This document shows, piece after piece, positions 3,767-54,317 of a stretch of 64,000 nucleotides of DNA. The position numbers were made by a program, and so were the translations under genes. Source of the DNA: Hygrocybe punicea (taxonomy: Eukaryota > Basidiomycota > Agaricomycetes > Agaricales > Hygrophoraceae); NCBI GenBank assembly GCA_963556145.1, contig OY744465.1:3968001-4032000 (forward strand). Direction: 5' to 3'. The notes beneath the pieces are model-generated. The model was not told the DNA's origin. It saw only the letters and a list, made by a program, of their open reading frames with translations, and ran no database searches. Position 1 is the stretch's first letter; each line of letters begins with the position of its first letter.

Positions 3767-4038
3767 GCCATGTTTCTACTCCCAACACAGCTAATTACCG
3801 TTGTAGAGGGTTGACGTCCCTCTGAGTCCATATCATCGATAGGCAATGACACGGGTATACCTGCGGGTGTCCCGAGGCCGACCCAGACCCAGACCCACTC
3901 CAACCCATACCCAGACCTGCTCCAACCCGTACCCGTCCACCCACGGGTCTCTTTTCAGTAGGTAGATGGTGGGTAGTGGTGGGTCGGGTACGGGTATTGA
4001 CCCATGCAGGAAACCTGGTGGGTTCCAGCCCACATCTA

Positions 4039-4091
4039 CCTCACGTTGCTGACACGCACATCAATTGACGTGGCGGTGTGCAAACGTGAGG
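4039..4091. repeat. 52-bp tripartite palindrome, copy 3 (53 bp)
   Basis: It runs from CCTCACGT to ACGTGAGG with the core ACATCAATTGACGTGG. It lies about 200 bp inside the left terminus of the ACCCG-type hAT-like element. Confidence 0.75.
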
Positions 4092-4209
4092 AGTGGGGGG
4101 GCTGGGAACCACATGATGGGTGGTTCTCGTGGGCGAGAGTCTCTCACCCATTGTATCCATCTTCTTGTTCCCCACACCATCTCCAATTCTCCCCTTCCTC
4201 TCATCCTCC

Positions 4210-4287
4210 TTCATCATCTCGAACCTTGCATACGTGTCATCTCGAACCTTGCGTACACGTCGTCTCGAACCTTGCATACGCGTCAGC
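4210..4287. repeat. Tandem repeat, three units of about 24 bp
   Basis: Three consecutive units begin TCTCGAACCTTGC and differ mainly at CpG positions. They lie inside the hAT-like element. Confidence 0.7.
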
Positions 4288-4398
4288 CTGTGTTTCGATG
4301 CCGATGAGCCTTGGCATTCGCAGTTGCAGCATCTGGATGGCGGCGTCATGATTCTGGGCTGATGTGGGCACGTGTGGGCATGTAATTGGGGGGAACGG

Positions 4399-4962
4399 TG
4401 TAGAGGCTCCGGGCCGTCTGGACCCAAATCCTCTTCATATCCCACATCGTCCCCGTCCATTCCCATTCATGTATCGTCGATTCCGCCCGATTCCGGTCCG
4501 GATCCCCCTCCGGAATTGTTCATACTCAAGATGCAGTGTCTCTAACGACCTGGAATCACTACGTATATAGTCATATATCATGTATCTATGTTTTCCGTCT
4601 CCTAGTACATAGCATTCCTCCACTCCACTCCACTCCTATCAGTTACAGCCTTCGCTTGTAGTACATAGTTACTACAGCACAGGATCACTCCCAGTAGTAT
4701 AAAAGATGTACCATATCATATCACATCCCATCATATTACAGGTTATCGCTCCCCTTCAGTTCTATTTCTTAGTCCCCGCTTCGTATCGTCTCCATATTAG
4801 TCTTCGTACTCCACTCCCTTCACTTCCCCTCTGATCCGGAACCCCGGATTCGGGTTGGATTGACTAGACACTATAGAAACTAAATTCCTCTGATCACTTC
4901 TTAGCTGATCAACCCTTTCCGTAGATTCCTATTCCAGGTCTACAACAGAACTCGCCATCACA
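4399..4962 (+). repeat. 5' LTR of the family-1 element
   Basis: 564 bp, closely matching 6077-6661. The last 18 bp (ACAGAACTCGCCATCACA) belong to the LTR, because solo copies elsewhere also stop there and the TSD starts right after the copy at 6661. Confidence 0.85.
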
Positions 4963-5145
4963 ACTGAAGCCCACCGCGAGGAGTTTAGTTCTTTTGTCTT
5001 TTCATACCCTCCCCACCATCGGGTTGGACTTTCATGACGTTTCTCTTTTGTTCCTGACTCTAATCGCTCAGCCCCGCTTACGACTTCAACCCCTTCCTCG
5101 TACCTCCCCGACCTGACCCACTTCCCGATTTGGACATTCCCCAAT

Positions 5146-6081
5146 ATGACGCACAGATTGATGCCTCTCCGAGGTGATCGTTCAGCCCCGACGTTTCACA
5201 GTGACGAACACGACCTTCCCCGCTTCTTTGACGAAATTGACATGCTCGGCTCTGACTGTGGACTCACAGATGCTTTGAAGATTCGCTATACGCTCCGGTA
5301 CCTCAATAACGACGATTATGAACTTTGGTCTACCCTACCCGCCGCTTCAGCAAAAGACTTCATTGCTTTCCGACGTGCCATTTTCGCCTTCTATCCCAGT
5401 GCCATGGACAGTATTCGGTATATGATCGCGGATCTCGATCAATTGATTAGACGACAATCGGCTTATGGTATAGAGAACAAAGTGGACTTAGGACAATATT
5501 TCCGGGATTTCATACGCATTTCCGGTGTCTTGTTTGACAACGGCCGTCTATCGGATAAGCAACGGAACACATACTTCGCCAACGGATTCGACTCAGACCT
5601 TCATCTACATATTGAAGAATGCCTCCATTACCTTCGTCCCGACCATTACCACGACGATCCATACCCGCTCGACGTTTTCCACGATGCCACCTTATTCCTA
5701 CTTTCCGGTTGTCGCTCCATTCCGAAATCCCCTTCCCTTGCCATTACTATCTCTAGTCCCGATTCCGGTCCCAGTCCCCCACCCGTCATAGCTTTGTCAT
5801 CTCTGTTCCCGATTCCGACCTCGATCCCGCCCACCATCGTTCGTTCCATCGCCCACGTTCATTCCGGTCCTACATATACTCCGTCCCCTTTATCACATAT
5901 TCCGTCCCCACCCATTCAGGTGCCTGTCGAGACCATCATTTGTTTACAGGTATTGTCGTCCAATCCCGTGTCATCCCCGTCCGATCCCATTCCCGATTTA
6001 TCGATGCTGGTCACCAATTTATCCAATTCATTTCCTATTTCGACCAGGGATGGTCTCTATCTGAGTCCTGACCGGATGTAG
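5146..6081 (+). CDS. Gag-like polyprotein of the family-1 retroelement
   Basis: 311 codons. The N-terminal half resembles the gag of basidiomycete Ty3/gypsy elements: RGDRSAPTF near residue 9, then DLPRFFDEID and RYLNNDDYELWSTLP, a helical capsid-type domain to about residue 190. The C-terminal third is rich in Pro and Ser and has no CCHC zinc knuckle. The ATG at 5146 is the first good start; MPLRGDRSAPTF a few codons on could be the true start. The TAG stop lies inside the first bases of the 3' LTR. By inference it packages element RNA. No frameshift is seen, so this is the best-preserved retroelement gene in the window. Confidence 0.75.
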   Translation: MTHRLMPLRGDRSAPTFHSDEHDLPRFFDEIDMLGSDCGLTDALKIRYTLRYLNNDDYELWSTLPAASAKDFIAFRRAIFAFYPSAMDSIRYMIADLDQLIRRQSAYGIENKVDLGQYFRDFIRISGVLFDNGRLSDKQRNTYFANGFDSDLHLHIEECLHYLRPDHYHDDPYPLDVFHDATLFLLSGCRSIPKSPSLAITISSPDSGPSPPPVIALSSLFPIPTSIPPTIVRSIAHVHSGPTYTPSPLSHIPSPPIQVPVETIICLQVLSSNPVSSPSDPIPDLSMLVTNLSNSFPISTRDGLYLSPDRM

Positions 6082-6661
6082 AGGCTCCGGGCCATCTGGA
6101 CCCAAATCCTCTTCATATCCCACATCATCCCCATCCATTCCCATTCATGTATCGTCGATTCTGCCCGATTCCGGTCCTCTCCATCGATTCTGCTCCGGAT
6201 CCCCCTCCGGAATTGTTCATACTCAAGATGCAGTGTCTCTAACGACCCGGAATCCCTATGTATATATAGTCATATATCATGTATCTACGTTTCCCGTCTC
6301 CTAGTACATAGCATTCCTCCACTCCACTCCACTCCTATCAGTTACAGCCTTCGCTTGTAGTACATAGTTACTACAGCACAGGATCACTCCCAGTAGTATA
6401 AAAGATGTACCATATCATATCACATCCCATCATATTACAGGTTATCGCTCCCCTTCAGTTCTATTTCTTAGTCCTCGCTTCGTATCGTCTCCATATTAGT
6501 CTTCATACTCCACTCCCTTCACTTCCCCTCTGATCCGGAACCCCGGATTCGGGTTGGATTGACTAGACACTATAGAAACTAAATTCCTCTGATCACTTCT
6601 TAGCTGATCAACCCTTTCCGTAGATTCCTATTCCGGGTCTACAACAGAACTCGCCGTCACA
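6077..6661 (+). repeat. 3' LTR of the family-1 element
   Basis: 585 bp, TGTAGAGG to CGTCACA. Compared with the 5' copy it carries a small insertion near 6178 and scattered transitions. The acgg TSD follows at 6662-6665. Confidence 0.85.
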
Positions 6662-6665
6662 ACGG

Positions 6666-7200
6666 GGTCTGGGGCGTGTTTGGGCATGTTCTGTTGCATG
6701 GGCACGGGCTTTGGGGCTTGTGTGGGCATCAAATGGTCGGGTGTTGTGGGACTGCAGTCTGGGACGCATTTGAACGTGTTTTCTTGCACAGGCATGGGGC
6801 TTGGGGCTGGGGTGGGACTTGAGACACGTTCGGACGTGTTCGGACGCGTTGTGCAGCAGGGACAGTGTGTTTGGGGCTGATGCAGGCACGTGATGCGTCT
6901 CCTGTTGGGTTTTTGGCATGGGGGTTCGCATTTGGGCACTATTTGACGATGGGGTGTCATGGAACATGTTGGGACACGGTTTCGCGCGACGATGGGGCCA
7001 TTTGGGTCGTCGTGGAGATGCCGTTGGTGGGTGATGTTTGCATTGAGGCAGAGGCAGTGGGCACTTGAAAATGGAGGTGTTGGTAAGCCATTTGCGGCTG
7101 GGTTGTTGCATCCATTTGTGTTGATGCTGATATGCGGGTATGCCAAGACCCGCGGTCACAGGTACAGGTTTTGCCTGGGTCCAAAAAAGGTAACCCATAC
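6666..7200. other. Remainder of the hAT-like element, repetitive
   Basis: GC-rich, with recurring GGGGCTTG, GACGCATTTG and GGACGTGTT-like words and ACCCG/CGGGT words near 7140-7200. The minus-strand open frames (up to 196 codons) are rich in His, Pro and Thr and follow the repeat. I do not regard them as genes. Confidence 0.5.
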
Positions 7201-7204
7201 CCGT

Positions 7205-7997
7205 TGTAGAGGGTCCTCGACCCTCTGAGGCCGTAACATCGATATCTAGCGAATCCGCTCGAACCCGACGTCTCTAGCAATCTACGTTCGAACCCGACGC
7301 AACCCGACGCAACCCGGTGCATACCGACTAGCACGGCCGCTCACGTACCTGGTCGGTCTATCTCCTAAACTCGCGGAACTTCAAATATCAAAGATAGATC
7401 TCATCGGACTGGGATCCTGACATCGGACTTGCCTTATTCACGCCTAGCGTCTCCCTTATGGGGATATAGTAAAATATTTTGCATCTTTTACGGTTTTTAT
7501 ATCTTCCACCCATTTTCCCTGTCATCGTCGCCTCGCAACGCTCTTCCTACTTCCCCATTTTTATTCTCCTTTGTTTCCTCTCATCGGCCGAGGACTCTCG
7601 TCCGAATCTAGGTACAGAACTTTGTAGTATAAAAACGGTGCCCAAGCGCCGTCTCAAAATAAGAAACCAGTTACCCCATTTCCTCTCTCTGAGAATTAGT
7701 CTCTCAGTAAATTCCATCGCACACATTGCTCGTCGGATTCCTCGATGCCCTCCCCGTCGTTCTACCGCCTTTATCTCTACGTTTCTCATCACCCGACACC
7801 CGACCCGCCGTACCCGACATCGTCGGCTTCGTCGGCTTCGATCGGTCTCGATAGATTTCAGTAGTTTACTCGGCGGCTTCTTACTTTTTATATCCTATTA
7901 TCTTACTGAAGCTTGTTAGACTATTCCTAGTCACTTCTACGCTGACCCCACAGGCTTAGGATTATTATTCCGCAGCCACCCCGACCTCGCCTTTACA
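7205..7997 (+). repeat. Solo LTR, family 2, inside the hAT-like element
   Basis: It runs from TGTAGAGGG to GCCTTTACA, 793 bp. The TSD ccgt is identical at 7201-7204 and 7998-8001. Its sequence is more diverged than other family-2 copies and its CpG content is better preserved. Confidence 0.8.
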
Positions 7998-8918
7998 CCG
8001 TACCCAGCAGTACCCATACCCGCAACCCGTGCGAGTTACCTGTACCCATGTCATTGCCTAATTGTCGATATATCATGAATCCAGACGAACCCAACACATC
8101 CAAACGACTCCCATTCCAACCCAATGTAACCTGATGTGACATGACCTGATGTGACCCAATGTATGCTGCTTTGTCACAGCTCCTTTTGGACCAAATCTGG
8201 CAGCCTCAGAAGCCCCGGAGTTCCAATTATAGGAGATGGATCTCATCGGATGTGATTCCCGACTTCAGACTTGCCTTATATATGCATCCCCTCGTCCTTT
8301 CAGAGATATGTAGGACATTTTAGATCTTTTTCATGGATATTTGTTTTCCCCTCCATTTTCCTGTCTTCATTGCATCGCAACCCCCCTCTTTACATCCCCA
8401 TTCCAACTTCTCTTTGTAGTTTTCCATCAGCCGAAATAGACATGTCCAAAAGTAGATTACTCACTCATGTACTATAAAAATGGTCCCCGACGACTGTACA
8501 AAAAGAGATACCCTTAGTCCCCGTTTCCCTACAGTCAGAGTCATGTTTTAATCCCTTCAATTGCTTGTTCTCATAGACCCTTAGATTTTTATAGTTCACT
8601 TCGTCGTCTTTATCGTTGTTCCATTATTTGCTCATCATTCCTGACCCAACCTGACCTGACCCGCCATACCTGACATTGTTGGCATCGTTGGGTTCATTCA
8701 TTTTCAGTCTGTTCATCATCGGGTTCCTTCTTATTTCATCCATTTTCAGTCTAGATTATCGATATTTGTTTATTTTCTTAGTTTATATGGCAGCTTTACA
8801 TTCTATTCTTTTACCACTATTCCCGACACTGACTTATCCACCGTCACTTCTATGCTGACACCCCTATGTTAGGATCATTATATCTTCCAAAGCCACCCTG
8901 AACCTGTATCTACACCGT

Positions 8919-11990: not shown

Positions 11991-12007
11991 TGGACTGACA
12001 TGAGCTC

Positions 12008-12512: not shown

Positions 12513-12708
12513 CTGTCTTTAGGGAAATGCAGGGATAAGGGTAAATGCTTTTCCGCAGGTATCCGTACTTTTAAGAGTACGGATACGGATACAGATTCTC
12601 GTATCCGTGGGCTTCAAAATGAGCCAGAGATCATCCAAAACGGTCAAGAATTGACTGAGATAGAGACTAAACATTGATTGGACTCTATCTCAGTCAATTC
12701 TTGACCAT

Positions 12709-12870
12709 TGGAGAACGGATCTCTGGACCTGAGGGAAAGGCTCAGGGGGAGCCGCAGCTGGGAGGGGGAAGCTGAGGAAAACCCTAAGATGGATGACTAA
12801 GCTACTACAGGAATGGGAATCTACTGGCTAAGGGTCTCTGGGGTCCTAGGGGCTAGCAGCAACTGCTGCA
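12709..12870 (-). repeat. 3' LTR, family 3 copy 1
   Basis: 162 bp, nearly identical to 20055-20218, differing mainly by small indels near the start. Confidence 0.85.
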
Positions 12871-12927
12871 GATACCCCCCTCCACAATGGTGTGTGCCCT
12901 CGCACACATCTCCTGCCTCTGAGAATC

Positions 12928-13316
12928 TCATCCTCCATGAAACTCCACCCAATCATCCACTATCCTCACTATCACTGGTGCTAAGAGGGGTCCTAAAAGC
13001 GGGTCGGGGTTGCCACACAGAGGGTCTACCATCTCCATGAGAACATGTAGCACAATCTTCATGTCTGGGGGAAGAAGCTCTAAGAAGGTATACCATGAGT
13101 CAATTCCTGGGCCCCATGCAAGCTCAGCTATAGCCCATGATCGATCAATCACAAATGGGATGGCCACACCAAGGGCAAGTGCTATCAATGACTGGACAGG
13201 ACCATATGATGTCGATACAGGGAAGATTGTCAGCCATTCGTCTTCCGTAGTCTGGGTACCTGTGTTGACGAGTCGTGGGGGCGGTGCGATCGGTGGGATA
13301 ATTTCGGTGGGAACTG
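12928..13316 (-). pseudogene. C-terminal part of the family-3 gag-like gene, copy 1
   Basis: The minus-strand frame runs from APPPRLVNTGTQ to the stop after IVDDWVEFHGG. It matches the C-terminal end in copy 2 (IVRIVDDWVEFCGAYG), sharing the IAELAWG motif and PxxGPxLAPxIVRIVDDWVEF. The N-terminal part is at 18524-19736, separated by a 5.2-kb insertion, so the gene is broken. I do not recognise the domain. By position in the element it is a structural gag-type protein. Confidence 0.6.
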
Positions 13317-14208
13317 CATCAGGAAATTTACAAGCCCTTTTTTTGCACCTTGGAGGCTCTTGACCTTTTTTGAAACCTCTTGAACTTTTTTCTGAGGTTT
13401 TTTTCATCTTTTTTAACAACTTCTGCTACCTTATGGCACTTTGAGTCACTTGGAAATATTTACTACATAATATCCCTTGCACACCTTTTCACCCTTTTCG
13501 ACTTTTTCCCACCTTTTCAAACTTGGATTACTTTGACTCCTTTAGCACTTTGCTTACTTGTTGGTCCTTTACAATTAATCACTTTACTTGTCTTACCACT
13601 TTTGACCTTATGACCTTGGATCACTTTTGACCTTTGATGCTTTTTCTTCTTTTTTTCTACTTTTCCCATCTTTTTCAAAAGTGAATTACTTTGAAAAAGG
13701 ATACCTCTTGTCCCAAGACAAAGAGCTTTTGTAAGCCAGGTCCATTTCTTGAAAAAGTTCTTTTGTCTTTGGAAAAGAAGAATCTCTTGAAAGCTTTTCC
13801 ATATCTTTTGTGGTTTGTTAGCCTTTTTTACAGGTTATTTAAATACTTCTGAATGAATACTTTCAGTTTCAAAATAAATTGTGTACAGTATACATTTGAA
13901 ACTTCAATAATTTCAGTAAATGTCTTATTATTGAAGAAGTACTGTAAAATTGTCAATCAACACTGGTAATGTACTTTGTTTCAAAATATTGGATCATTAT
14001 GATTTTGAATGCTTTTTGAATACTGGTGCAACAATATGATAACAATATGTAGTATACCCTCCCAATAAATTCAGTATATGGACCATGTGTGGCCAGCCTG
14101 TCTGCGAGGTGGAATTCGGGTGCTGGGGCCTTGCACTGGCCTTCAGCCATACGTGGGCCTCTTCGTCTGGATGTCCCGATGTGTCCGCGTTGAACCAGAC
14201 AACTTCCA

Positions 14209-14570
14209 CCTCACGAGAGAGCTGCGCATGTCAATTGATGTGGCCAGCATCTTCGCGAGGTGGGAATGGGGTGCCCTGCCCTGCCCTGCCCTGCCCTGCC
14301 CTGCCCTGCCCTGCAGATACTCCATCTGACCTCGCAAGAGAGCCGCACACGTCGGTTGACATGGCCGGCATCTTCGCGAGGTGGGAATGGGGTGCCCTGC
14401 CCTGCCCTGCCCTGCAGATACTCCATCTGACCTCGCGAGAGAGCCGTGCACGTCGGTTGATGTGGCCAGCGTCTTCATGAGGTGGGATTGGGGGGTGCCC
14501 TGCGGTGACTCCATCTGACCTCGCGAGAGATCGGCGCACGTCAGTTGACGTGGCCAGCATCTTCGCGAGG
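14209..14570. repeat. Tandem array of four 52-bp tripartite palindromes
   Basis: Copies lie at 14209-14260, 14330-14381, 14431-14482 and 14519-14570, each CCTCRCRA-N10-core-N10-TCRYGAGG, with cores such as CACGTCAGTTGACGTG. Between them are (CCCTG)n runs and a repeated ATACTCCATCTGA. A half-site follows near 14630. The long minus-strand frames across it (up to 261 codons) are repeat artefacts. Confidence 0.85.
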
Positions 14571-14963
14571 TGACGAAACGCACGCGTTGTACGTGTGCGT
14601 TCTGCCTCGGTAGCGTCTGCGGTGCCGGCACACTTCATCGCGAGGTGGGTGCCATGGTGCCGTGGCCTGTCCTGGTGAAACACACTCGTTTGACGCGTGT
14701 GTTCCGGTGGTGGTAATGGTGGTGGCAGCGCGGTGGCGCGTTCTTCAGTTAGAAGAATAAAATTGATGGAAAAAATTAATGAAAAACATACCATGAAGCA
14801 GCGGGGGTGGATGCACCACCCCCTGCTGCTCGTTCCGTCTCGTTGACTCGCCCACTCCATTCGTTTGCGTGTGCGCATGTCCCGGTTTGCCATGGGGCCT
14901 GTTGTTGGCACGTCCGACGTGGCATTGATTGTCGATGTCATGGTTGTGGCTGTCGTGGTGGCA

Positions 14964-14998
<35 letters not shown>

Positions 14999-15035
14999 CA
15001 TGGTGGTGGTTGCCATAGACCTGTAATTTAATTGT
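14571..15035. other. GC-rich repeat body with (TTG)n run
   Basis: It contains a GGTGGATGCACCACCCC palindrome near 14806 and a pure GTT run (14966-14998) that yields a poly-Thr or poly-Cys frame. It resembles the GTGGTGCACCCACC region of the elements at 37085 and 44243. No gene is called. Confidence 0.5.
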
Positions 15036-15040
15036 TAGTG

Positions 15041-15083
15041 TCGAATAAAATAAAATAAAATAAAATAAAATAAAATAAATAAA
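15041..15083. repeat. Microsatellite (AATAA/TAAAA)n
   Basis: About eight consecutive AATAAAATAA-type units directly before the solo LTR. Confidence 0.8.
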
Positions 15084-15107
15084 ATGAAAGGAAATAAAAA
15101 ACTACGC

Positions 15108-16015
15108 TGTAGATGCGGGTTCGGGGTGGCTTCGGAACTATAAAGAAAGAAATAAAGATCCTAACCAGAGGGGTGTCAGCGTAGAAGTGACGGTGGATAA
15201 GTCAGTGTCAGAAATAATAGTAAAGGATGTGGAAATGTAAGTAAAATATCAAGCCTCCGTGTAAAACTAAACAAATAACGATGAATCCGGCGATGAACAG
15301 AGTGAAAACGGATGAATAACGAAGAACCCGACGATGCCGACGATGTCGGGTATGGCGGGTCAGGTCAGGTCGGGTCAGAAACGATGAACGAATAATGGAA
15401 ACAATCAATAAAGACGATAAAGTGAGCTACAAAAAGCTAAGGATCTACGTGGACGAGCATTTGAAGGGATTAAAGAAGATTCTGACTATATGAAAACGGG
15501 GACTAAGGGTATGTTTTTTTTTTTGTACGGTCGTCGGGGACCGTTTTTATAGTACAGGAGTGTGTAGCTACTTTCAGACATGTCTATTTCAGCCGATAGA
15601 TACTACAAAGAAAAGATGGAATGGGGATGTGGAAAGGGGGGTTGCAAAGCAACGAAGACAGGAATATGGAGGGGAAAACGAATATGCAAGGAAAAGATCT
15701 AAAAAGTCCTACATATCTCCGAAAGGATGAGGGGATGCACAAATAAGGTAAATCTGAAGTTGGGGATTGAGTCCAATGAGATCCATCTCCTATAATTAGA
15801 ACTCTGGGGCTTCTGAGGCTGCTGGATTTGGTCCGAAAGCGGCTGTGATGAAGCGGCATGTGTCGGGTCACGTCAGTCATGTCGGGTCACATCACGTCAC
15901 GTCACGTCATGTCGGGTTACGTCGGGTTCGAATGCAAGTCAAATGGCGGCATCGGGTTGGTCCGGATTTGTCATATATCGATGATACGGACTCAGAGGGA
16001 CGTCGACCCTCTACA
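15108..16015 (-). repeat. Solo LTR, family 2, minus orientation
   Basis: It begins TGTAGATGCGGG and ends CCCTCTACA, 908 bp, the reverse complement of the other family-2 copies. Flanks are acgc (15104-15107) and acgt (16016-16019), a 4-bp TSD with one transition. No internal region is attached. Confidence 0.85.
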
Positions 16016-16253
16016 ACGTGGGTGTAAGGGAGTACTGCATGTACCAGGGCTGCGTCACTCCTGGCCTTGCTCATCATCATTGTTGCGTTGGCGTCGTCCT
16101 ATGGTCAAAGGTCAGTACTGGTTAGTCGCCAAGTCCAAACTTACCGAAAATGGCAAAAGTGATGATGTTTGGCGCTCCATTTTGCCAAACTTCTCCAAAT
16201 GGTCTGTGCACGACCTCCAAACATATATAAGTCATGCACATGCATTTACTCGT

Positions 16254-17135
16254 TGTAGAGGGTCGACATCCCTCTGAGTCCGTATTGTCGATATATCATG
16301 AATCCGGATGAACCCACTGCCTCCATTGAACTCGCATTCGAACCCGACGTAACCTGACGTGATGTGACCCGACATGACTGACGTGACCCGACACATGCCG
16401 CTTCATCACAGCCGCTTTCGGACCAAATCCAGCAGCCTCAGAAGCCCCGGAGTTCTAATTATAGGAGATGGATCTCATTGGACTCAATCCCCAACTTCAG
16501 ATTTACCTTATTTGTGCATCCCCTCATCCTTTCGGAGATATGTAGGACTTTTTAGATCTTTTCCTTGCATATTCGTTTTCCCCTCCATATTCCTGTCTTC
16601 GTTGCTTTGCAACCCCCCTTTCCACATCCCCATTCCAACCTTTCTTTGTAGCTTACCATTGGCCGAAGTAGACATGTCCGAAAGTAGCTACACACACATG
16701 TACTATAAAAATGGTCCCTGACGACTGTACAAAAAAGAGATACCCTTAGTCCCTGTTTCCCTCATAGTCAGAATCATTTTAATCACTTCAAATGCTCATC
16801 CTTGTAGACCCTTAGATTATTATAGTTCATTTCATCGTCTTTATCATTGTTCTCGTTATTTGTTCATCGTTTCCAACCCAACCCAACCCAACCTGACCTG
16901 CCATACCCGACATCATCGGCATCATCGGGTTCATCGTTATTTACCCGTTTTCATTCCATTCATTACTGGATTTATCGTTATTTGTCCAGTTTTATGCGGC
17001 AGCTTACATTTTTACTTTCATTTTCACCTTTTATTACTATCCCCAACACTGATTATCCACAGTCACTTCTACGCTGACACCCTTAGGCTAGGATCTCCTT
17101 TATTGTTCCGAAGCCACCCCGAAGCCACATCTACA
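16254..17135 (+). repeat. Solo LTR, family 2, plus orientation
   Basis: It begins TGTAGAGGGTCGACATCC and ends GCCACATCTACA, 882 bp. The TSD is tcgt (16250-16253) and ttgt (17136-17139), differing by CpG-to-TpG. It lies 238 bp from the oppositely oriented copy, forming a large inverted repeat. Confidence 0.85.
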
Positions 17136-17167
17136 TTGTTACGTGCGTATTACTCACTTTCATTTTA

Positions 17168-18014: not shown

Positions 18015-18225
18015 TACTGATTTAGTTTACAGACATTGTCATATACTTTGTAAGTTGTTGTTAGTAAATATGAAGTTACTCTAAAATCAATTAAATATTT
18101 TTGTAATCTATTGATTATTATTATTATGTTTGTCCTTGAATTTGTCCACAATTGTGGATGTGTGTTATCTGGTCTGAAAAAAGGCCTTCTTTTACAAGGA
18201 ACAAAAGGGGCCAAAGGTCCCAAGA

Positions 18226-18447: not shown

Positions 18448-18523
18448 TTGGAAAAGGTGGACCTCTTGGGACCTTTTACAAGGTGCAAAAGGTGCAAAAA
18501 AAGGGCTTGTAATTTTTCTGATG

Positions 18524-20051: not shown

Positions 20052-20054
20052 CAT

Positions 20055-22517: not shown

Positions 22518-22521
22518 GCAT

Positions 22522-36753: not shown

Positions 36754-36836
36754 AGTCGGCTAGTATACGAGGTGGTAATGCGATGTTCGGAGGTGCGTGA
36801 TCGTGTTTCCGTTAAAGCCGTTCAGGGCTCATAACC

Positions 36837-40237: not shown

Positions 40238-40241
40238 CCGA

Positions 40242-41125
40242 TGTAGAGACTCAATGTCCCTCTGAGTCCGTATCATCGATATATCACGAATCCGGACAAA
40301 CCCGACACCTCCAATCAATTCCCATTCCAACCCAACGTAACCCGACGTGACGTGACCCGACGTGACCAATGTGACCCGACACATGCCGCTTTGTGATGGC
40401 CGCTTTTGGACCAAATCCAGCAGCCTCAGAAGCCCCGGAGTTCTAATAATAGGAGATGGATCTCATTGGACTCGATCCCCGACTTTGGACTTGCCTTATA
40501 TACCCATCCCCTCGTCCCTTTGGAGATATATGTGAGATTTCAGATCTTTTTCTTGGATATTCCTTTTCCCCTTCATTTTCCTGTCTATGTCGCATTGCAA
40601 CCCCCCTTTCCACATCCCCATTCCATCTTCTCTTTGTAGTTTCTATTGGCCAAAATAGACATGTCCGAAAGTAGACTACACACACATGTACTATAAAAAT
40701 GGTCCCCGACAACCGTACACAAAAAAAAGAGATACCCTTAGTCCCCGTTTCCCTCATAGTCAGAATCATTTTAATCACTTCAAATGCTTGTCCTTGTAGA
40801 CCCTTAGATTATTATAGTTCATTTCATTGTCTTTATCATTGTTCCCTTACTCGTTCATTGTTTCTGACCCGACCCGACCAAACCCGCCATACCTGACATC
40901 GTCAGCATTGTCGGGTTCATTGTTATTTATCCGTTTTCAGTCCATTCATCGCCAGGTTTGTTATTATTAGTCCAGTTTTATGCGGCAGCTTTACTTTTAC
41001 TTACATTCCCTTTCTTTTACTACTATTCCCGACACTGACTTATCCACAGTCACTTCTACGCTGACACCCCTCAGGTTAGGATCTTTTCTTTATTGTTCTG
41101 AAGCCACCAAGAACCTGCATCTACA
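40242..41125 (+). repeat. Solo LTR, family 2
   Basis: 884 bp, TGTAGAGACTC to ACCTGCATCTACA. The TSD is ccga (40238-40241) and tcga (41126-41129). It lies 138 bp upstream of the helicase start. Confidence 0.87.
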
Positions 41126-41263
41126 TCGAGATGTCCAGGTCAGAGTGTCAAATTTACTTGCAGTGGTCCTCCATTGATAGTCTGGTGAGCTTTGGTACAG
41201 TGGGTGTAGATAAGTAATTATGTAATGGAATAGCCTGCCAGCTGAGCTATACTGCCCCACGAC

Positions 41264-43593
41264 ATGAGCACGTTTTTGACCCCTTCGATCATGGATTCCC
41301 AAGGTACAGCACCCTCTCTGCTTGAGATGGAACGTTTGGCCACCTTTACTTCTCGAAAATACGACTCGGAAGTGACACGCAAGGTGATTGACGACAAATT
41401 TAGGCAGGTCTGCCCCAGCAAAATTCCCCACAAATGGCAGGTAGACATAACTGAAGCCCTCTTACTCGGCCTCGACTCCATCATGATTGCGGGGACCGGC
41501 GCTGGCAAAATGATGCCGTTTATCATGCCTCTGCTTCCAGACGAGACTAAGACAAAAATGGTACTTGTAATTTCACCCTTAAACGAGCTCGAGGCGGAAC
41601 AGGTGAGTTTTTGTGCCCCTTGATGCCTTGGCATGTAACCATCATATCCAGGCCCCAAAATTCCAGGATATGGGCTTTACCACGACTACTGTCAATGCCG
41701 ACAACTATACGCCACAGCTCCACAAGGTACATACCAATCTCACATTTGTTTCATGTAATCCTTATGTTCTATGCCTCAGGACATTCAAAACCGCAAGTTT
41801 CAAGTCATAATAACCTCCCCCAAGATGTGTCTCGAACATCCGAAACTCTCGTCCATTTTTCGATCACCCGAATTCACGAAGAACTTTCTCACTGCCGTCT
41901 TTGATGAAGCTCACTGCATCTCTCACTGGGGCAACAAGTTCTGCAAGAAATACTCTGAACTCAGCAAGCTACGATCACTTTTCCCATCATCGGTCCCTTT
42001 TTTGGCTGCGTCAGCAATGTTACCGCCTCATGTTCTCTCTGACATTCAACACTCACTCAGTTTCAACATGAAATGCACATTCTTCGTCAACTTGGGCAAC
42101 AGTTGGCCCAACATCACACCAATCGTCTGTCAGATGCATGGCACTGCAACAGATCTCAATGCTCTCGACTTCACGGTCGAAAAACCCCTTTCTGGTGCTC
42201 CTTTTATCTGCACAATCATCTTCGTCAATACTCGCAATCTTGCCTACAAAACCTGGAGGCATCTGAAAACCCTTTACCTCCTGATCTCGCATCAAAGGTT
42301 GACTTCATGCATGCTGGACGTTCGACTCGTGCAAAACGCAAGGTCATGCATGACTTTCGAGAGGGACAGATATCTATCTTGTGTGCAACTGATGCCGCCG
42401 GCATGGTGAGTGCTCTATTCAATGTCTCAACATCGCTAACATCTTTTTAGGGTATGGACATACCAGACATTGCTCGCATCATGGGATTCATGGTCCTGTC
42501 TTTGCTCTCAGTTTGGGTCCAGCATTATGGCCGAGTTGGACGTAACGGCAAACCAGGAGAAGCTATTTTGTTGGTCGAACCATCATTTTATCAACTCCGC
42601 AAAGAACATAGGAAGCAAACCAGCCCTGGCCAAGATGATGACGATGCAGATGACCCAGACAATGGATCCACAGACACCAATGCCCACAGTGTTGATGCCC
42701 GCTATGCCAAGAAGGTTGAGGGCGGTATGCGGAAATGGGTTGATGCTTTGGCCATGGAGTGTCGCTGTGCTGTCAAGAAGGAGTATTTTGGCAATCCCGA
42801 TGGTGGGCGGGCACTGATTGTGCCCTGTTGCAACCTATGTGTTCTCAAGAGCACTCGTGAATGCCCAGATGATCTATCTCCCCAGGAACAGATGATCTTC
42901 AAGCTCATCCATCGCCTACACTCAAGAACTATGGATCAAGCTGATTCTACTCGAGATGAAGATGTACAAGACATGTCTGACAATGAAGAATGACCCTCTG
43001 TATCTCAGTCTACTCAAACGGCCACCAAGTGGCCTCGCCGCGCAGGTCTCCACCATGCAGAACGCCTCGAAAACTGTTGTGATAGTCTCATCAAGTGGTG
43101 CGATGAAATTTGGAACAGGGACTTCCTCAACTGTACCTTTGATTCAGAAAGTATTATGCCCAACACGATCCTCACCAAGATCGCGAGCTGAGCCCATCTC
43201 AACACATTGGATGACCTCAAGGAGGAGCTTGGAACCTGGATCTGGTTGGTTGAATATGACAAAGAAGTCCTTTGAGTATTGGCCCCCATTGACATCGCAT
43301 GGAATGAAGAAAACAAGAGGGAGAAGGCAGAGAGGAAGGCAAAGAAGGCGAGGGTCACCAAAGAAAATCAGCAAACATGGTATGAGGAACGACTTGCACA
43401 ATCTTGGGCAGCCACAGTGCTGCACACCCTCGCAAGAGCACCCACTCGTCCAGCGTTGCAACCCACGCTGCCATTCCCAACTGTGCCTGCTCTTCCATGG
43501 CCAGCTGTCCCCTCTGGATTGCCATTACAAGCTCCATACAACTTTCCATATTATCCATTTCCTCAGCATGTTCCAGAACTTTGTCGAGTGTAA
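41264..43593 (+). pseudogene. RecQ-like DEAH-box helicase, decayed
   Basis: Starts MSTFLTPSIMDSQGT. Walker A is changed (MIAGTGAGKMMPF for the usual GxGKT). The DEAH box is kept (VFDEAHCISHWG). The helicase C-terminal domain has WVQHYGRVGRNGKPGEAILL (motif VI, Q-GRxGR). A cysteine cluster follows (ALIVPCCNLC). GT-AG introns are visible at 41603-41651, 41728-41779 and 42405-42450. A frameshift near 42268 separates RHLK from the ENPLPPDLASKV frame, and TGA stops lie near 43189 and 43272. The family unwinds DNA with ATP; many diverged copies occur in mushroom genomes. It converges with the DUF6589 gene, leaving about 36 bp between their ends. Confidence 0.8.
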
Positions 43594-44623: not shown

Positions 44624-46924
44624 TGGAACGGGGTTGGGGGCATCTTCGGGCCCGGTATGGTGCATTGGCGGGTGGATGGAGGTGGGATGGTCGAACGCGT
44701 GGACCGTGCCTGTCTGTGGTGGTGGGGAAAATTCAACAGCAAATGAAAAAAGACTTACCTGGTGACCGGGGGTGGGTGCACCACTCTCCTGGGCAGTTCT
44801 CTTGCTTTCTGCGTTTTTGTTGTGCGTGGTTGTTGCCATTGCCATTGCCGTTGCCGCTGCCATTGTCATTGTTGTTGCAGTTGTCGCTGTCATTGTCGTT
44901 GCGGTTGCTGCTGCTGCAGTTGCGGTTGATGTCGCTGGGGGTCATTTGGCCGTTGTCGTTGTCATTGTCATCGTTGTCGTTGGGGTGGTGGCATTGGTGG
45001 TGGTGGTGGTGTTGCCACTGCCATTGCTGCTGCTGCCGCTGCTGCCATCAATTCACTCCAACTCGCGTTGGAACACGAGGGAGGTTGTTGGGTGAAGTTG
45101 ACTGTGGGCGCCTTATTTATGTGGTCAAGGTGGGCCCTGTGGGGCTGTTCTATGTAAGAAAATGTCAGTAAAATATGAAATAAAGTCATTACTTACCGTG
45201 GTTGTTGAGTAACATTAGTGTTGAGTGGAAATTGAAGAGTTGCGCGTGTATGTTTAAGGTCACATGACCTAAGTTCACGCGACTGCATACAAAAAAATGT
45301 GAAAATTTGAGTATCTAAATGAGTATCTACATAGGTAAATATATATTATGGTTCGCGGTTTGAACCACGTTTGAACGCGGTTTGAACTGCATGTCAGTGC
45401 CAGAACTGCAAACTGAACCAGCGGTTCAGTTCAGCCAAAGGGCTGAGCCAGAACCGAAATTCTGGTTTGGTTCGCGGTTCAAACTGGGTTCGGATCGGTT
45501 CCGAACCAAACTTCAGCATCACTATTCTATGGTGTAGTTCTTGTTTTTGCCACCAGCAAAATGAAAGAGCAGCCATGGAAGGATGTCTGGTATGCAGCCT
45601 ACATCACCGACCTTGATAGCATCATCAAGTTCCATGTAGTTGAGTATGTCACGCAGGAACTGTGTCATTTGGTGCAGGAGGTCGTCTGGAGACTTCTTGG
45701 CAGCTATCTTCTGTAGTGCGCTCTTGGAGGCATAGTCGTTCATGATGCTGATGGCCATGCTGTGTAGTTCCTGCGGATTAAGTTGCCGTAAGTCTTTTAC
45801 ACCGTCTACCCCACCAATTTTACACCAGAGATCTCGGAAGTGTGCCTCAGCAATGTGATAGAGTCCATCCTGGAAATGATAATGAAAATTACCTTGTACG
45901 CTTGGGGCATGGAGTCCTTTCCATTTCAGAAGGTCGAAAGCATGCTGGAGCCCAAAGCCGCCATGTGTGCTGTAGTATTGATGGTGCAATGAATGTTCGA
46001 GAGCAACCAGCGCATGAAACCAGCCAAAGACAGCCTTGATGAAACTCAGTCATTCCAAAGAGTTTGGATCCATGCAACAGAACTTCTGCAGACCGCAGAT
46101 CTGCGAAACTGTGAGCTGGTCACCTACCCAGACTAGAACCCATTTCGTTCCTAGATCCTTGAGTTGGTCTCCAGATGTAAAGCCTAGTTGCCACCACCAT
46201 TCATCAAGGACCCAATCATTACCTTCATAAGAAGCCTCTTCAATGTGAACCGTGTACAGCATATATTGTGTGGTTATGTGTTCAGGGCCAATGGGAAGTG
46301 CATGACGAGGAGCAGGGGCTTTGAGACGTTCATCATCCTTGTGAGCGTATGTTTGGAAATTGAAGTCTGGAGAGTCAAGCAAGAAAGATAAGACTTGGAA
46401 GATTGCTTGCTGCCGAAGATGAGAGGCAGCATCTCGATCTAGCTTAAGCACATCTTTGTAGCTGATTGGAGTCTTGGCACCAAGTGCTCGTTGACGTTGA
46501 AATGCCTGGTAGTCAGGTCGTATACCAGCTGCCACTGGATCTTTGATGATGATGATCGTGGCAGCCATTCCACTATCAAAGTGACTTTGATTGTCCAGCC
46601 TTTGCTCGTAGACTCTGAACGGCAAGTTTATGTTGTCGTGAGTCCCAAACCAGCTGTACTTGTCAACATCGGCCAGCAGGTTGTTTCGGACATTCTCAGA
46701 CAACTGGTCAATGGCATCATAGGCCCACTTCTGGCTCATGGTGAGGCCCAGAGCGTGGAGGGTGTTGAAAGCCTTGGTTGTGAGGCCACAGCTCTTGAAG
46801 TAGATGGTGAGTAGCTTTGGAACCTTGCTGCGATGATGCAACTGAGAAAAGGAGCTCATAGAGACCATAGTGAGGACGACCTAGTATCATTCATACATTC
46901 AGTGATAGAAAGATTGATTTCAAG

Positions 46925-47551: not shown

Positions 47552-48606
47552 CAGCTGTCATGTCAACATCGAAATGAACTTTTTGCTGGGTGGGTTGACA
47601 AGCCGACACACTCCTCCAGATCTCACTTGCACATATGAAGTCTTGCTGGCATACATGGGGACACACCAACTGAACGCAATGCTTATGGGCGCAATACTGC
47701 ACATTAAGTTCCAGATATGATTTCAAAAGGCCTAACGCTACTACAGGCTGTCAAAATGTCTAATGAAAGTGGCAATGAATCAGTGGAGGACATAGTAGAG
47801 TATATAGATATAATAGGAGAGATGTAAAGATTAGTAGAATTACATGGCATAAAAAATCTCTGGCGGTACAATGTTCAGTGTCGGTTTCACAGGAGGGAGA
47901 TTTTCTTTGTGTACAGCTATAGTAACCCTCTGCCGGGATGGATGTAAAGTGCACTTGTCACAATTGCTCGCTGTGTAAACACAATGAATATGAAAAGTCA
48001 AAACAGCATGAGAAATACACGCACCAATGTATCCCTCCATTTTGCATGCTCCACATCTGTTACGCTGTTTTGGGGCTGCCATCTGTGTTGGATTACCAGG
48101 TATATTTTCAGGCAGTTGGATTCAATTTTGCAGTGGGGTGGAAGTCGTGAGCGGGGCAGTGACAGAGGGTGTAGAGAAAGTCTTCAACATTGCCAAGATT
48201 TCTTTGTGAAATTCACTGGCCCAGATCCACAGCATCTCCTGCGAGAGCTGCTCCAGCGTCTCAATTTTCCCATAATTGGCACAGTCAGTGATGTGTTAGA
48301 GAAAATTGTCTGTCATGACCAACCCTAGGCCCATGCTAAGAAGAGCTGGGTGACCAAACTTCACCTCTGTGGCATGTTTGCATAACACGTGCAGCGCTGT
48401 TGCAAGGGCTCAATCGCTTTCACCAGGTTGATACTCTTTGAGTTGTGATCAAGGAAGTGGCAGTCTGGGGTGTAGTCAAGAGGCTGTGGGAGCAAAATCC
48501 ATGAATACTTCAGGCAAACAGGCTTTGCAACAGACTGGGGGTGTGTTGTAAATGCAATGGGGACAACCAGAAGGAATGTCAGGACAGCACGCTTTTGATT
48601 GGATGC

Positions 48607-48769
48607 TGGAGAGGGGATCTCCGGACCTCAGGGGAAGAGCTCAGAGGGAGCCGTGGCTGAGAGGGGAAAGCTGAGGAAAACCCTTGGATGGATGACTAAG
48701 CTACTACAGGAAAGGGAATCTACTAGCTAAGGGTCTCTGGGGTCCTAGGGGCTAGCAGCACCTGCTGCA
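48607..48769 (-). repeat. 3' LTR, family 3 copy 2
   Basis: 163 bp, TGGAGAGGGG to CCTGCTGCA. Confidence 0.88.
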
Positions 48770-48822
48770 GGTACCCCCCTCCGACATGGTGTGTGCCCTT
48801 GCACACATCTCCTGCCTCTGAC

Positions 48823-50361
48823 TCATCCATATGCTCCACAAAACTCTACCCAATCATCCACTATCCTCACTATCATGGGGGCTAGCACGGGTCCAAAAAC
48901 CGGGTCGGGGTCGCCACGCAGAGGGTGCATCATCGCTGTGAGGACCTCCAGAAACGTCCTGTGGTTTGGGGCGAGGTCTAGGAGACTATAAAACCATGGG
49001 TTTCCTTCTGATCCCCATGCGAGTTCAGCGATCTGGTAGATGTGAGAAATATTGGATGGGAGAGCCTTGTTAAGGGCAAATGCGAAGCCGGTTTGAACTG
49101 GTTCATAGTGCTGGGGTGGTGGTTCCTCTTCTATCATTTGGGTACCAGCGTCTACAAGTCATGGGGGAGGTGGGACCGGTGGGGTAACTTTGGTGGGGGC
49201 TGGTTGGCAGGGGCGCTGTATGGCTGGGCTTGGGAAAGGGCAATGGGCGCGATGTTTGGGTAAAAGGCGACGATTGCAGTGGCGGGTGCTGCTCCACGGT
49301 CAAGCACCTGTGCATAAGTCTGAAAAATCACGATCATATATACTAAGCTGAGATATGAAAACGGGGGCTGATGGTAGCGCTTGGGGGGGTGGTATCTCAT
49401 GTGGAGGGGCACCGGGGTGCGTTTGCGACGCGTTTTGGGGTTTCATTGGGGTATGGGGCATCTGTGGGGCCACTTGCGGCGCGTTTTGGGGCGTGTAGGG
49501 GGCCTGGGGTGTCTCTGTTCGCGTTCGCGACACGTTTTGGGGCGTCTGTGGGGTACCTGGTGTCCGTGAGGCCATTCGCGACGTGTCTCGGGGCGCGTAA
49601 CAGGTATGGGGCGTCTGCGTTCGCATTGGCATGTCATTTTGGGGTGTGCTTGACGCGTTCTGGGGTGTCCCTGGTGGTGCAAATGAAGGCGGCGGCGTTT
49701 GGGCTGATATCGACGTGTTGGATGGCTGCGTTGGGTCTTGGGGCCATGGTCTGGCCGGTATCGACGCGTCAGGGATCGACGTTGGGACGCGGGGCATTTC
49801 TCGACGCGTGGGGGCTGGTGGAGATGTGGTGGCAGCAGCTGGGCTGGGTTGGGGCTTGTTTGGGCATGCGGCCGCTCGTGTTGGCTGTTTCTGGGTCGGA
49901 CACTGGGGCCATGGTCTGAGTGTTGGAGGTGAAGGTGGTAACATTGGGTGCAGCTGTGACGTGGCAGCTGTGTTGGGCATGATGGGCACGCGTGCGGACG
50001 GCGTTGGGGCCTGCGAGACGGTAGATGGGGTTGCCATTGACATTGTGGGGACTTGGGGCATGGTTGCGAGGGTGGGGGACGCAAACATTTTTGCATTCGT
50101 TGTTGGCCGTCCGTTTTCTGCCTGCGGTGAGTCCTGTGTTATCGTTTTGAGGTGCGTACCTTCTTCTGCGCAGCGAAGCACTTGTTGTGCCGTTTTTTCT
50201 TTCTGTTGCATCTTCTCCTTCATCTTTTTCTCCACGTGTCTCTCCTTTGTTTCGCGTTCATCCGCCAACCGTTTTTGCAGCTCGAGTATGCATGTGTCGC
50301 ATTCCACATGGAGCTCCTTCTCCGTCTTCCTGATTTTGTGGTTTCGTGTCTTGGGTGCCAT
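48823..50361 (-). pseudogene. Family-3 gag-like gene, copy 2
   Basis: Begins MAPKTRNHKIRKTEKEL at 50361. Residues 1-75 are basic and likely coiled coil (LQKRLADERETKERHVEK); then about 250 residues rich in Pro, Thr, Ala and Gln with TPQNAS repeats. A 43-nt GT-AG intron is likely at 49320-49362, joining PSAP to TYAQVLDRGAAPATA. The C-terminal domain (49137-48823) contains IAELAWGSEGNPWFYSLLDL and ends IVDDWVEFCGAYG. One frameshift and one TGA (near 49160) lie before it; copy 1 has CGA (Arg) at the TGA position. No family recognised; its place between LTRs suggests a structural protein. Confidence 0.6.
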
Positions 50362-50648
50362 GGTATAGTCGCGTAGCTAGAGCAAAATGTATAGACAAAA
50401 GAGCAGCAGGGGAACTGTGTAATTCAGGCGTGGGAAAAAGTTGAACCAAATTCTGGAAGCAGACAAAAGGTGAGAAATCAAGGATAAATGATATAAACGA
50501 GATGGGTGAGGGAAATGGTGCTGATTCAGTTGTGTTTTCGCACTTCGTTTGCGCATCCTGTCGAGTTCCTGGTGACTGGTGACAAGTGTTTTTCAGTGTT
50601 CGAAATGGCATGTTTTGAGCTCTTCGGGATCTGGTCCTACGGGTGCGT

Positions 50649-50671
50649 GGCTTGAATCTCTCTCATCACCA
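50649..50671 (-). promoter_or_regulatory. Putative tRNA primer-binding site, family 3 copy 2
   Basis: The same 23-nt tRNA-3'-end-like block as at 20029-20051, with one C-to-T change in the T-loop-like part (CTTGAATC). It ends in CCA 3 nt from the LTR at 50675. Confidence 0.65.
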
Positions 50672-50674
50672 CAT

Positions 50675-50837
50675 TGGAGAGGGGATCTCTGGACCTCAGG
50701 GGAAGAGCTCAGAGGGAGCCGCGGCTGGGAGGGGAAAGCTGAGGAAAACCCTTGGATGGATGACTAAGCTACTACAGGAAAGGGAATCTACTAGCTAAGG
50801 GTCTCCGGGGTCCTAGGGGCTAGCAGCACCTGCTGCA
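50675..50837 (-). repeat. 5' LTR, family 3 copy 2
   Basis: 163 bp; only a handful of transitions separate it from 48607-48769. Confidence 0.88.
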
Positions 50838-52170
50838 ACGCTTTATTTATGTCATGAAGCGACATTTTCTCAGGCTGGAGATGTCAAAGGACTCTGACTC
50901 ACCAAACCCAGCATTACCAAAATATGCCTTTACAGGCTTGTGGAAGCACTTCAAGTGGTGTCGCGTCTTGGCATTCACAAAATCATCCATCACCAGCTCA
51001 ATTTCCTTTGTCTTATTGCAATCTTAAGACAAAGTGAGGTATGAGTGTGACATAAGAAATAGTCTTTGAGCGAGTGACAGGTGTGACATGGAGTCAACAC
51101 TCTGTGTCCTGCTGTCATCATCATTGCGGCTCGTTTTCTTCACCCACCCACCACTCCCCTTCTCGCCCTGCCTCTTCCTGCACCTCAGAGTTCCTGACTG
51201 CTGCCTGGACAAATATGTTTCCTCCTGTGATCTGAACCCTGCAGGGTGGCCCATCCCACCCTCACTGCTCACATTGGTTCCTTCCCACAGACAGAACCAT
51301 CCTTCTCGGGGCCAGGAAGCCCTCTGGCTTTCACCCAACCCTCTCTTCACTCACTCTTTCCTTCTCCCAATTCTTACAAGTAGCTACATGCCTTGCACCT
51401 TCCTACCTCTCTTCTACCTTGCAATCTAAGCTTCACCATAACGGACTCTCAAAGACCTCTCACTGTGTGTGTCTCTGCTGGCATGCTGTTGTATACCTTC
51501 GCAAGTGTAGAAAGGTTGGCATTGAGGTCCTCTGGGTCATTTCCAGGTGCTGGAAGAGCTGCTGGCATGGCAACATTGGGCACTGATTGTGTTTGCCGAA
51601 ACCCTTTTGGTGCGTTCGGAGTTCTCAAGCCTTTCATTAGCCTTTCATTTTTTCTCCTCCAGCTGTGTGGCCTTCTGTGCAATATTTGCATTGAAATACT
51701 TGGGCTCCACAAGCAACATGGCCATGCCTGTTAATGTCAAGTCCTGAACTGCTTGCCCGAACCACTGCCAAAGCATACATAGGTCGCAGGTAACCTTCCA
51801 TTGGATTATAAGTCTAACATCTGGTACGTCCAGTCCCTGCCACTCAGTTAGACATAATTGCAGACTACAGAAGGTAAGCTCACCATGCCAAACAAGTCTG
51901 TTGCAAGGTAACCCCATGAATGTCCATCTTGCAGCTCTTCACATCTGTGTTCTCAGAACTGCACTGACATCTTGGAGTTAAACCACTTTATCAAGCCTCA
52001 CATCTCGATTGGCAAGCAATTTCACAAGAACTTTGCTGCACGCACTGATTCTGCAATCTTGTCAAAGAACATTAGGATTTTTGGCAGCTTCCAACCATCA
52101 GGGGGATTCTCTGGTATCAAAAATGCAAGGTCGAGAAAACTATTGGCTGGATGCACCATTTTGTGCATGG

Positions 52171-53081
52171 TGTAGAGACTCAATGTTCCCCTGAGTCCAG
52201 ATTGTCGATATATCACAAATCCGGATGAACCTGATGCCTCCAATCGACTTGCATTCGAACCCGACATAACCTGATGTGATGTGATGTGATGTGACCTGAC
52301 GTGACCAATGTAACCCAACACATGCCGCTTTGTCACAGCCACCTTTGGACCAAATCCGGCAGCCTCATAAGCCCCGGAGTTCCAATTATAGGAGATGGAT
52401 CTCATTGGACGTGATTCCCAACTTTGGACTTGCCTTATATATGCATCCCCTCGTCCTTTTGGAGATATGTAGGACATTTTAGATCTTTTTCATGGATATT
52501 TGTTTTCCCCTCCATTTTCCTGTCTTCATCACATCGCAACCCCCCTCTTTACATCCCCATTCCAACTTCTCTTTGTAGTTTTCCATCGGCTGAAATAGAC
52601 ATGTCCGAAAGTAGATTACTCACTCATGTACTACAAAAACGGTCCCCGATGACCGTACAAAAGAGATACCATTAGTCCCCATTTCCATATAGTCAGAATC
52701 TTGTTTTAATCCCTTCAAATGCTAGTCCTCGTAGACCCTTAGATTTTTATAATTCACTTCGTCATCTTTATCATTGTTCCCATTATTCATTCATTGTTTC
52801 TGACCTGACCCAACCTGACCCACTGTACCTGACATCGTCGGCATCATTGGGTTCATTATTATTCATTTGTTTTCAGTCCATTCATTGTCGGATTCCTTCT
52901 TATTTCATCCATTTTCAGTCTGGATTATCAATATTTGTCCATTTTCTTAGTTTATATGGTGGCTTTACATTCCATTCCTTTTACTATTATTCCCGACACT
53001 GACTTATCCACAGTCACTTCTATGCTGACACCCCTAGGTTAGGATCTATTGTTCTGAAGCCACCCCGAACCCGCATCTACA
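52171..53081 (+). repeat. Solo LTR, family 2, inside the helicase
   Basis: 911 bp, TGTAGAGACTC to ACCCGCATCTACA. The TSD is atgg (52167-52170) and acgg (53082-53085), one CpG-to-TpG apart. It is oriented opposite to the helicase gene. Confidence 0.88.
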
Positions 53082-54317
53082 ACGGTAAGCTGAATATTTG
53101 GCCAGTTGTTTGAGCGGTGCATAATGTATGCATTTTCCTTTCGTATCTGTAGGGTATCCATGACATCGCAAAGAACCAGGGTCAGGAATCTGGCTGATGT
53201 CACAACAAGGTGGACATGTTTCAGGAGAAGGTAGCATAGTCATTCAACCTGTCGATATTCTGGCCAGAATCCACCCCATTTGCTGATGCAGTTGGCTTCA
53301 TTGAAGGTAAGTGCAATAAGTCTACTGGTGAAAATGTGATTTTTCCATAGCGCTTCAAAACCTCCGCCTGGTTTCATTAATGTCTTGATGTTAGTCATGA
53401 TGGCACGGTATTTTAGGTTTGTGATGTCCTTGTAAATTTTTATTTCAGCACAGAGATGTGGTTCATTGATTGGTACTTACTCTGAAGTTGGCAGGTGTTG
53501 CAGTCTCTGCCATAATGGATATAGCAGGAATGCCTCGTTTGACGAGACTGGCAACATTGACAGTCCCAAGGAGATTAAGGGGTGTACAGACTATCTGGAT
53601 ACCTCCCTCCAAGGCTAACAGAGGCATCCAAAAGGTAAGTGTTTTTCCTGAACCTGTTGTGGCTGTAAGTATTACATCCTTGTCTTTCCCCAGGACGGCC
53701 TTTATGACAGAGCTTTGCCAGTGGCAAGGATTATGCCCCAAAGCCTTGATGGTTTTTTCCCTGAGTTTTTCAGGTGATAAGGGTATGCCTGGTGACATCA
53801 ACATCATTTTCTCTAGAGATAGGAATACGTATTTCTCGAAATCACTACATTAGGAGTCAACTGAATCTGTGGCTGACATTGTTTACTAATGTTATCTGCA
53901 AGCCTAGGGTCGAGAGGAATAACGGTGTTTAAATTTGCATTCTCACAGTCTCAATATATCGGAATTTTCCAACCGAAGCAGAAAGTTCCGGTTTTGGAAA
54001 GTCCGCGTGTCTGAGTCCAGTCCAAGTCCGCATAGCCCAATAATGCCAAACAAACACATCAAAACTTGTCAAACGACGCCGACATAGACCCCAGTGACGC
54101 CAACGACAACAACGCAGACCCTAGCGATACCATTCTGATATCACCGAAGTTTCGTACGTCTTTTTGTTACACTATTGCAACCCAGTGAGTAGTTCAAGTC
54201 TCAACTCATACCAGTCTGACTTCGTGAAATTCAGGCTCTCCTCACAATATGTTACTTGTCGCTCCTTTTCAATTTAGTGTCATCCTCTATCCGTTTTGGT
54301 GCCGAATACCGTCAATA

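Follow-up and report, generated by a model that had tools for sequence, protein, structure and literature searches.

Central CpG in the target sites of a Ty3/gypsy retrotransposon and three further LTR families in Hygrocybe punicea

LTR insertions in the window

The stretch of DNA analysed here (the window) comprises 64,000 nucleotides of the Hygrocybe punicea genome (assembly GCA_963556145.1, contig OY744465.1, positions 3,968,001 to 4,032,000 of the forward strand). It holds insertions, some of them nested, of three families of long terminal repeat (LTR) elements, here families 1–3, and a solo LTR of a fourth, a Ty3/gypsy retrotransposon that we call A. All four families insert with 4-bp target-site duplications that centre on CG or, less often, on TG or CA, a rule that is absent from two chromovirus families.

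A preliminary description of the window had reported 13 pairs of LTR flanks, and all 13 were re-located. They are listed below with their flanking tetramers, together with a Gag-like open reading frame (ORF) and a control element.

3798–8918, + strand: family 2 copy (3802–8914), CCGT/CCGT, with a family 1 element (4399–6661) and an A solo LTR (7205–7997) inside
4395–6665, + strand: family 1 element with two LTRs (4399–6661), ACGG/ACGG
5038–6081, + strand: family 1 Gag-like ORF, 347 residues, 40% identical over 187 residues to the A Gag, no Pfam match
7201–8001, + strand: A solo LTR (7205–7997), 97% identical to the C3 copy, CCGT/CCGT
12705–20222, + strand: family 3 element (12709–20218), CCAT/CCAT, with paralogous sites reading CCGT (6 of 7) or CTGT (1 of 7) in a miniature inverted-repeat transposable element (MITE)
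15104–16019, − strand: family 2 solo LTR, ACGC/ACGT, outer base unlike
16250–17139, + strand: family 2 solo LTR, TCGT/TTGT
21068–22521, − strand: family 1 LTR with family 2 nested within, GCAT/GCAT
21546–22433, − strand: family 2 solo LTR nested in family 1, CTGG/CCAG
24058–30728, + strand: family 1 copy (24062–30724), CCAT/CCAT
31652–37078, − strand: control copia element, 5-bp ACAAC duplication, no central CG
32155–32757, − strand: family 1 solo LTR (32159–32753), CCGC/CTGC
40238–41129, + strand: family 2 solo LTR, CCGA/TCGA, outer base unlike
48603–50841, + strand: family 3 element (48607–50837) with 163-bp LTRs, ATGC/ACGC
52167–53085, + strand: family 2 solo LTR, ATGG/ACGG

Two entries differ from the preliminary description: the start of the insertion labelled 32158 is corrected to 32159, and the insertion at 7205, assigned there to family 2, is a solo LTR of A (97% identity over 795 bp). 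Without the family 1 element and the A LTR, the copy at 3802 measures about 2 kb, longer than one family 2 LTR. The proposal that all pairs reduce to N-CG-N through CpG decay holds for six identical pairs, four that oppose CG to TG and one that reads CTGG/CCAG, and fails for the outer bases of the pairs at 15108 and 40242. The duplication of the control copia element was placed by eye.

Empty sites were sought by comparing joined flanks with the window and with the family 1 and family 2 loci. For the element at 12709, whose own flanks read CCAT, the empty site is CCGT in six of seven matches and CTGT in the seventh; because the MITE is palindromic, several of these seven come from the opposite arm, and three other copies, compared arm for arm, read CCGT, CTGT and CCGT. 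For the insertion at 21550, 24 of 28 matches read CCGG (17), CCAG (5) or CTGG (2) and the other four have different sequences, with some of the loci overlapping. The empty site of a further insertion (L015) is ACGA in three of three matches.

Target-site choice across the genome

The central CG seen in the window recurs genome-wide. In 161 of 161 distinct flanks (48 from A, 22 from family 1, 32 from family 2 and 59 from family 3), the 4-bp target site is centred on CG (110), TG (28) or CA (23), and no other offset among the 11 bases read per flank is enriched in CG. In the window, CG, TG and CA together make up 19% of dinucleotides and CG alone 3.2%. At the same offset, the two chromovirus control families have CG in 3 of 120 flanks and CG, TG or CA in 19 of 120. 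For six of the 13 remaining centres (GA, GC, GT, TA, TC and TT), a search of the whole genome for that centre before the exact A LTR start gave no match. Fifteen of the 16 N-CG-N tetramers were seen; the first base is T in 17 and the last base A in 19 of the 161 flanks, which describes the site as V-CG-B.

The 92.2-Mb genome contains 574 pattern matches to family 1 starts, 826 to family 2 starts and, depending on the pattern, 117–172 to family 3 starts. The A-start pattern has 790 matches at up to three mismatches, including family 2 starts (three bases off the A pattern), and A has at least 100 starts. Flanks were taken from 268 rows (100 listed A starts, all exact, 100 listed family 3 starts and 68 family 1 and 2 loci cut out), from which we removed one duplicate and 106 rows (52, 40, 8 and 6) whose sequence marked them as internal 3′-LTR junctions. 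The family 3 junction motif itself resembles an N-CG-N site, and a real family 3 flank may have been discarded; in seven of the 68 loci the LTR end was not found. The control flanks, hand-typed from 100 listed rows for each family, number 55 (after removal of 42 internal junctions and three repeats) and 65 (after removal of 32 internal junctions, two repeats and one tandem LTR start).

Both flanks are available for 64 insertions: 45 are CG/CG, 14 combine CG with TG or CA, four are TG/TG or CA/CA and one is mismatched. From the listed A starts we fetched 20 two-LTR copies, and the 19 with a readable 3′ end all carry 4-bp duplications: 15 CG/CG, one TTGC/TCGC, one ACGC/ACAC and two CA/CA. The 28 TG and 23 CA centres, along with the CA/CA flanks of two young A copies, could mean that CG, CA and TG are used alike and that the excess of CG has another origin. 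We regard this as very improbable: in the window TG and CA together outnumber CG about fivefold, yet CG/CG makes up 15 of the 19 A pairs, and the 14 pairs that oppose CG to TG or CA indicate that much of the TG and CA reflects decay. We interpret many TG and CA centres, and most unlike pairs although not all, as a result of the duplicated CpG decaying after insertion. CG is a strong preference rather than an absolute one, with a small leak into CA and TG.

A second alternative is that a flexible pyrimidine–purine (YR) step at the centre is all that the integrase requires, as in foamy virus, local composition supplying the excess of CG. The best PDB match of the A integrase is indeed the prototype foamy virus (PFV) integrase (E 1.8e-17; profile 5.9e-21), which selects a central YR with consensus VYRB according to the available text of PMC4422553, and the outer-base bias observed here fits V and B. 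However, TpA outnumbers CpG in the window (3151 versus 2048), yet it is the centre of none of the 161 flanks, against 33 expected if every YR step served, and CG accounts for 68% of flanks versus 13% of YR steps in the window. The absence of TpA refutes YR flexibility as a full account, making this alternative highly unlikely, while flexibility of the step stays part of the mechanism.

Element A, families 1–3 and known systems

A search with the integrase zinc-binding family, in which 150 of 673 candidates were scored, detected several gypsy types. The A type, with a 1257-residue frame, occurs in 42 of the 150 rows listed, and one copy was read in detail. The Pol frame of A runs from RNaseH through Integrase_H2C2 to rve, the last below the Pfam cut-off, and has a reverse transcriptase (RT) YMDD motif recognised by eye; a 910-residue frame contains the Gag region and a weak protease match, also below the cut-off. 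In the copy read, the LTR measures 795 bp, starts with TGTAGAGG / TGTAGAGGGTCC and ends with TTTACA; the putative primer-binding site (PBS), TGGAGCCCACCGCGAGG, lies 2 nt inside the LTR. The TG...CA ends of the LTR, the short duplication and the Pol order RT–RNaseH–integrase identify A as a Ty3/gypsy LTR retrotransposon. The preliminary description had suggested looking for an autonomous relative whose integrase carries an extra domain. A is the likely relative; no extra domain was recognised on its integrase. Pfam finds no chromodomain in A, whereas both chromovirus control types have Chromo, and with none after the integrase A was not classed as a chromovirus. Relatives of the A integrase carry names from Leucocoprinus, Pleurotus and Sparassis, and none was found among viral contigs. 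In one A copy (C3:6317349–6320242), read to a point short of the 3′ LTR, pol is followed by a minisatellite, its offsets about 34 bp, which may lie inside or outside the element.

A and families 1 and 2 have in common the 5′ LTR start TGTAGAG and the PBS TGGAGCCCACCGCG after the LTR, and the Gag-like ORF of family 1 resembles the A Gag, as listed above. No pol-like frame was seen by eye in the 3.3 kb of internal region of one family 1 copy; this, with the shared PBS and LTR ends, identifies family 1 as a non-autonomous derivative of A. For family 2, the PBS and LTR start, as in A, come from the two ends of the internal region that were read. A is the likely autonomous partner of families 1–3. 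The proposal of a shared integrase that follows a central-CpG rule has good support in A and families 1 and 2 from the LTR start, the PBS, the family 1 Gag and the site rule, and the site rule by itself would extend it to family 3, the least certain of the three families that the A integrase presumably mobilises. Chromovirus types II and IV were rejected as partners, with 5-bp duplications (one copy each) and no CG rule.

Several features of families 1 and 3 were recorded in passing. Unlike A (ACCCAAGGAGA), family 1 (L021 and L035; CCTGACCGGA) and family 3 (window 50664–50674; CATCACCACGT/AT) have no classical polypurine tract immediately upstream of the 3′ LTR. Antisense to gag, family 1 has ORFs with a cysteine-rich segment (Zn_clus, E 0.036, below the cut-off) and a lysine/glutamate-rich region (L072:1395–2983, − strand; C1:3632600–3635900), possibly a captured host gene. 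Family 3 has an antisense ORF of 358 residues without a Pfam match (window 49300–50376, − strand). Five family 1 Gag copies at an exact spacing of 4334 bp (C35:1853569–1872175) apparently form a tandem array of elements.

Three known systems resemble A in part. Ginger1 DNA transposons also combine a gypsy-type integrase/transposase with 4-bp duplications that have a central CG (CCGG in 75%, CCGT/ACGG in 24%) and have TGTNR ends, as given in the available text of PMC2836005. They are, however, DNA transposons with terminal inverted repeats and a narrower choice of tetramer, and with its LTRs, Pol and N-CG-N duplications A was not assigned to Ginger1. Drosophila errantiviruses of the gypsy, ZAM and Idefix groups are, like A, Ty3/gypsy LTR elements with sequence-specific 4-bp sites, which are the palindromes TATA, CGCG and ATAT; such specificity is called exclusive to errantiviruses and their derivatives in the accessible part of a review (PMC5408687). 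In these sites all four bases are set around an AT, GC or TA centre, whereas A fixes the central CG only, and its N-CG-N sites do not place A among the errantiviruses. PFV shares with A the 4-bp duplication, the VYRB frame and the central YR, which it bends sharply, and differs in its weak base choice where A narrows YR to CG (PMC4422553, in the text available). Helenus elements of some Agaricomycetes do not fit as a match, having 5-bp duplications (PMC10886601). Searches of an open-licence library, most subscription papers being outside this scope, turned up no LTR retrotransposon that follows an N-CG-N rule. The earlier remark that LTR families with this target were not known has to be qualified by the CGCG sites of errantiviruses and, among DNA transposons, the CCGG and CCGT sites of Ginger1.

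Chromatin tethers mostly direct the integration of LTR elements, and local sequence choice is weak, as PMC5408687 also states. For this class of elements the rule found here is unusually strict: a single dinucleotide, the one at which DNA is methylated, governs the local choice almost absolutely. For structural studies, A supplies a relative of retroviral intasomes that has strong base specificity.

How the CpG is probably recognised, and remaining features of the window

We consider it probable that families 1–3 are mobilised in trans by A and that the A integrase selects the central CpG. The integrase would make a 4-bp staggered cut and accept a target when its central step is CpG; CpA and TpG would be tolerated weakly, TpA and other steps, of which none was seen, would not, and the outer two bases would be mildly constrained (V first, B last). 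Because CG lies at the exact dyad, the intasome itself, rather than a loosely tethered host factor, would read the CpG, adding base contacts to the central YR bend known from foamy virus. In foamy virus and murine leukaemia virus (MLV), residues of the core and C-terminal domains alter base choice near the joint (PMC4477651, in the text available). Once inserted, the element would be flanked by a duplicated CpG that mutates to TpG or CpA, the decay that CpG undergoes in the rest of this genome.

Comparison of the two LTRs within each of eight A copies gives 44 differences in all, of which 40 are transitions and 38 lie in a CpG context, and the CpG observed/expected ratio falls to 0.13–0.26 in several 2-kb stretches of the window. 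CpG decay is the main mutation here, as expected with CpG methylation; it makes CpG methylation likely in this genome and does not imply that the integrase reads methylation. A methyl-CpG reader or maintenance-methylation complex of the host could instead tether the intasome to methylated CpG, and matches to the DNA cytosine methylase family at four places in the genome, together with window ratios as low as 0.13, are consistent with such an arrangement. Tethering, however, fixes a neighbourhood and not a base pair, whereas CG occupies the exact dyad with nearby offsets not enriched, and we judge the tether improbable.

A link between integration and DNA methylation is possible. Kitamura, Lee and Coffin reportedly described, in a 1992 paper whose title states it, an effect of CpG methylation on retroviral integration in vitro. 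Thymine carries a 5-methyl group. One doubtful, although less improbable, idea is that the A integrase directly reads 5-methyl-CpG, recognising at the dyad a 5-methylpyrimidine (methylcytosine, or T as a half-mimic) followed by G. If true, methyl-CpG reading would explain the use of CG, the weak use of TG and CA and the absence of TpA, and DNA methylation itself would serve as the address that directs the element, with neither a chromodomain nor a host tether, to repeat-rich DNA that is silenced. The observed/expected ratio is 0.68 in the pooled insertion flanks, 0.55 over the window's first 53 kb and 0.70–0.99 over its remainder, which is not decisive for methylated targets. The CpG rule may steer the elements to methylated, silenced DNA, and with A it could be tested simply whether integration can be guided by methylation. 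The nesting may also have its explanation here: with an observed/expected ratio of about 1.45, young A LTRs are rich in CpG, and every insertion therefore brings new targets with it.

Several observations weigh against selection of CpG by the A integrase on behalf of all four families. At the sites themselves, (i) the outer bases of the window pairs at 15108 and 40242 differ in a way that CpG decay does not explain, (ii) one insertion of the 64 (L048) has unmatched flanks, ACGA/GAAA, (iii) four like pairs (TG/TG or CA/CA) were counted versus about one expected under independent decay, (iv) in the two A copies flanked by CA/CA the LTRs are 99.75% and 99.87% identical, which indicates that these copies probably inserted into CA itself, and (v) the single empty-site match of L006 (ACGT) reads GCTT, and most other copies of the repeat that contains L052 (TCGT) read TCTT, with one TCGT. 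Regarding the elements, RVT_1 is unmatched in A, whose rve and protease matches are those below the Pfam cut-off; a pol gene is possible in the middle of family 2, as only the ends of its internal region were read; and family 3 lacks the shared PBS, the sequence after its 163-bp LTR being different.

Elsewhere in the window, ORFs at 41759–42993 resemble fragments of a RecQ-type helicase by eye, and an ORF at 46050–46880 (− strand) matches Pfam DUF6589 (E 4.3e-28). Large near-perfect inverted repeats at 2284–3006, 28599–29038 and 18189–18482 are possibly palindromic MITEs.

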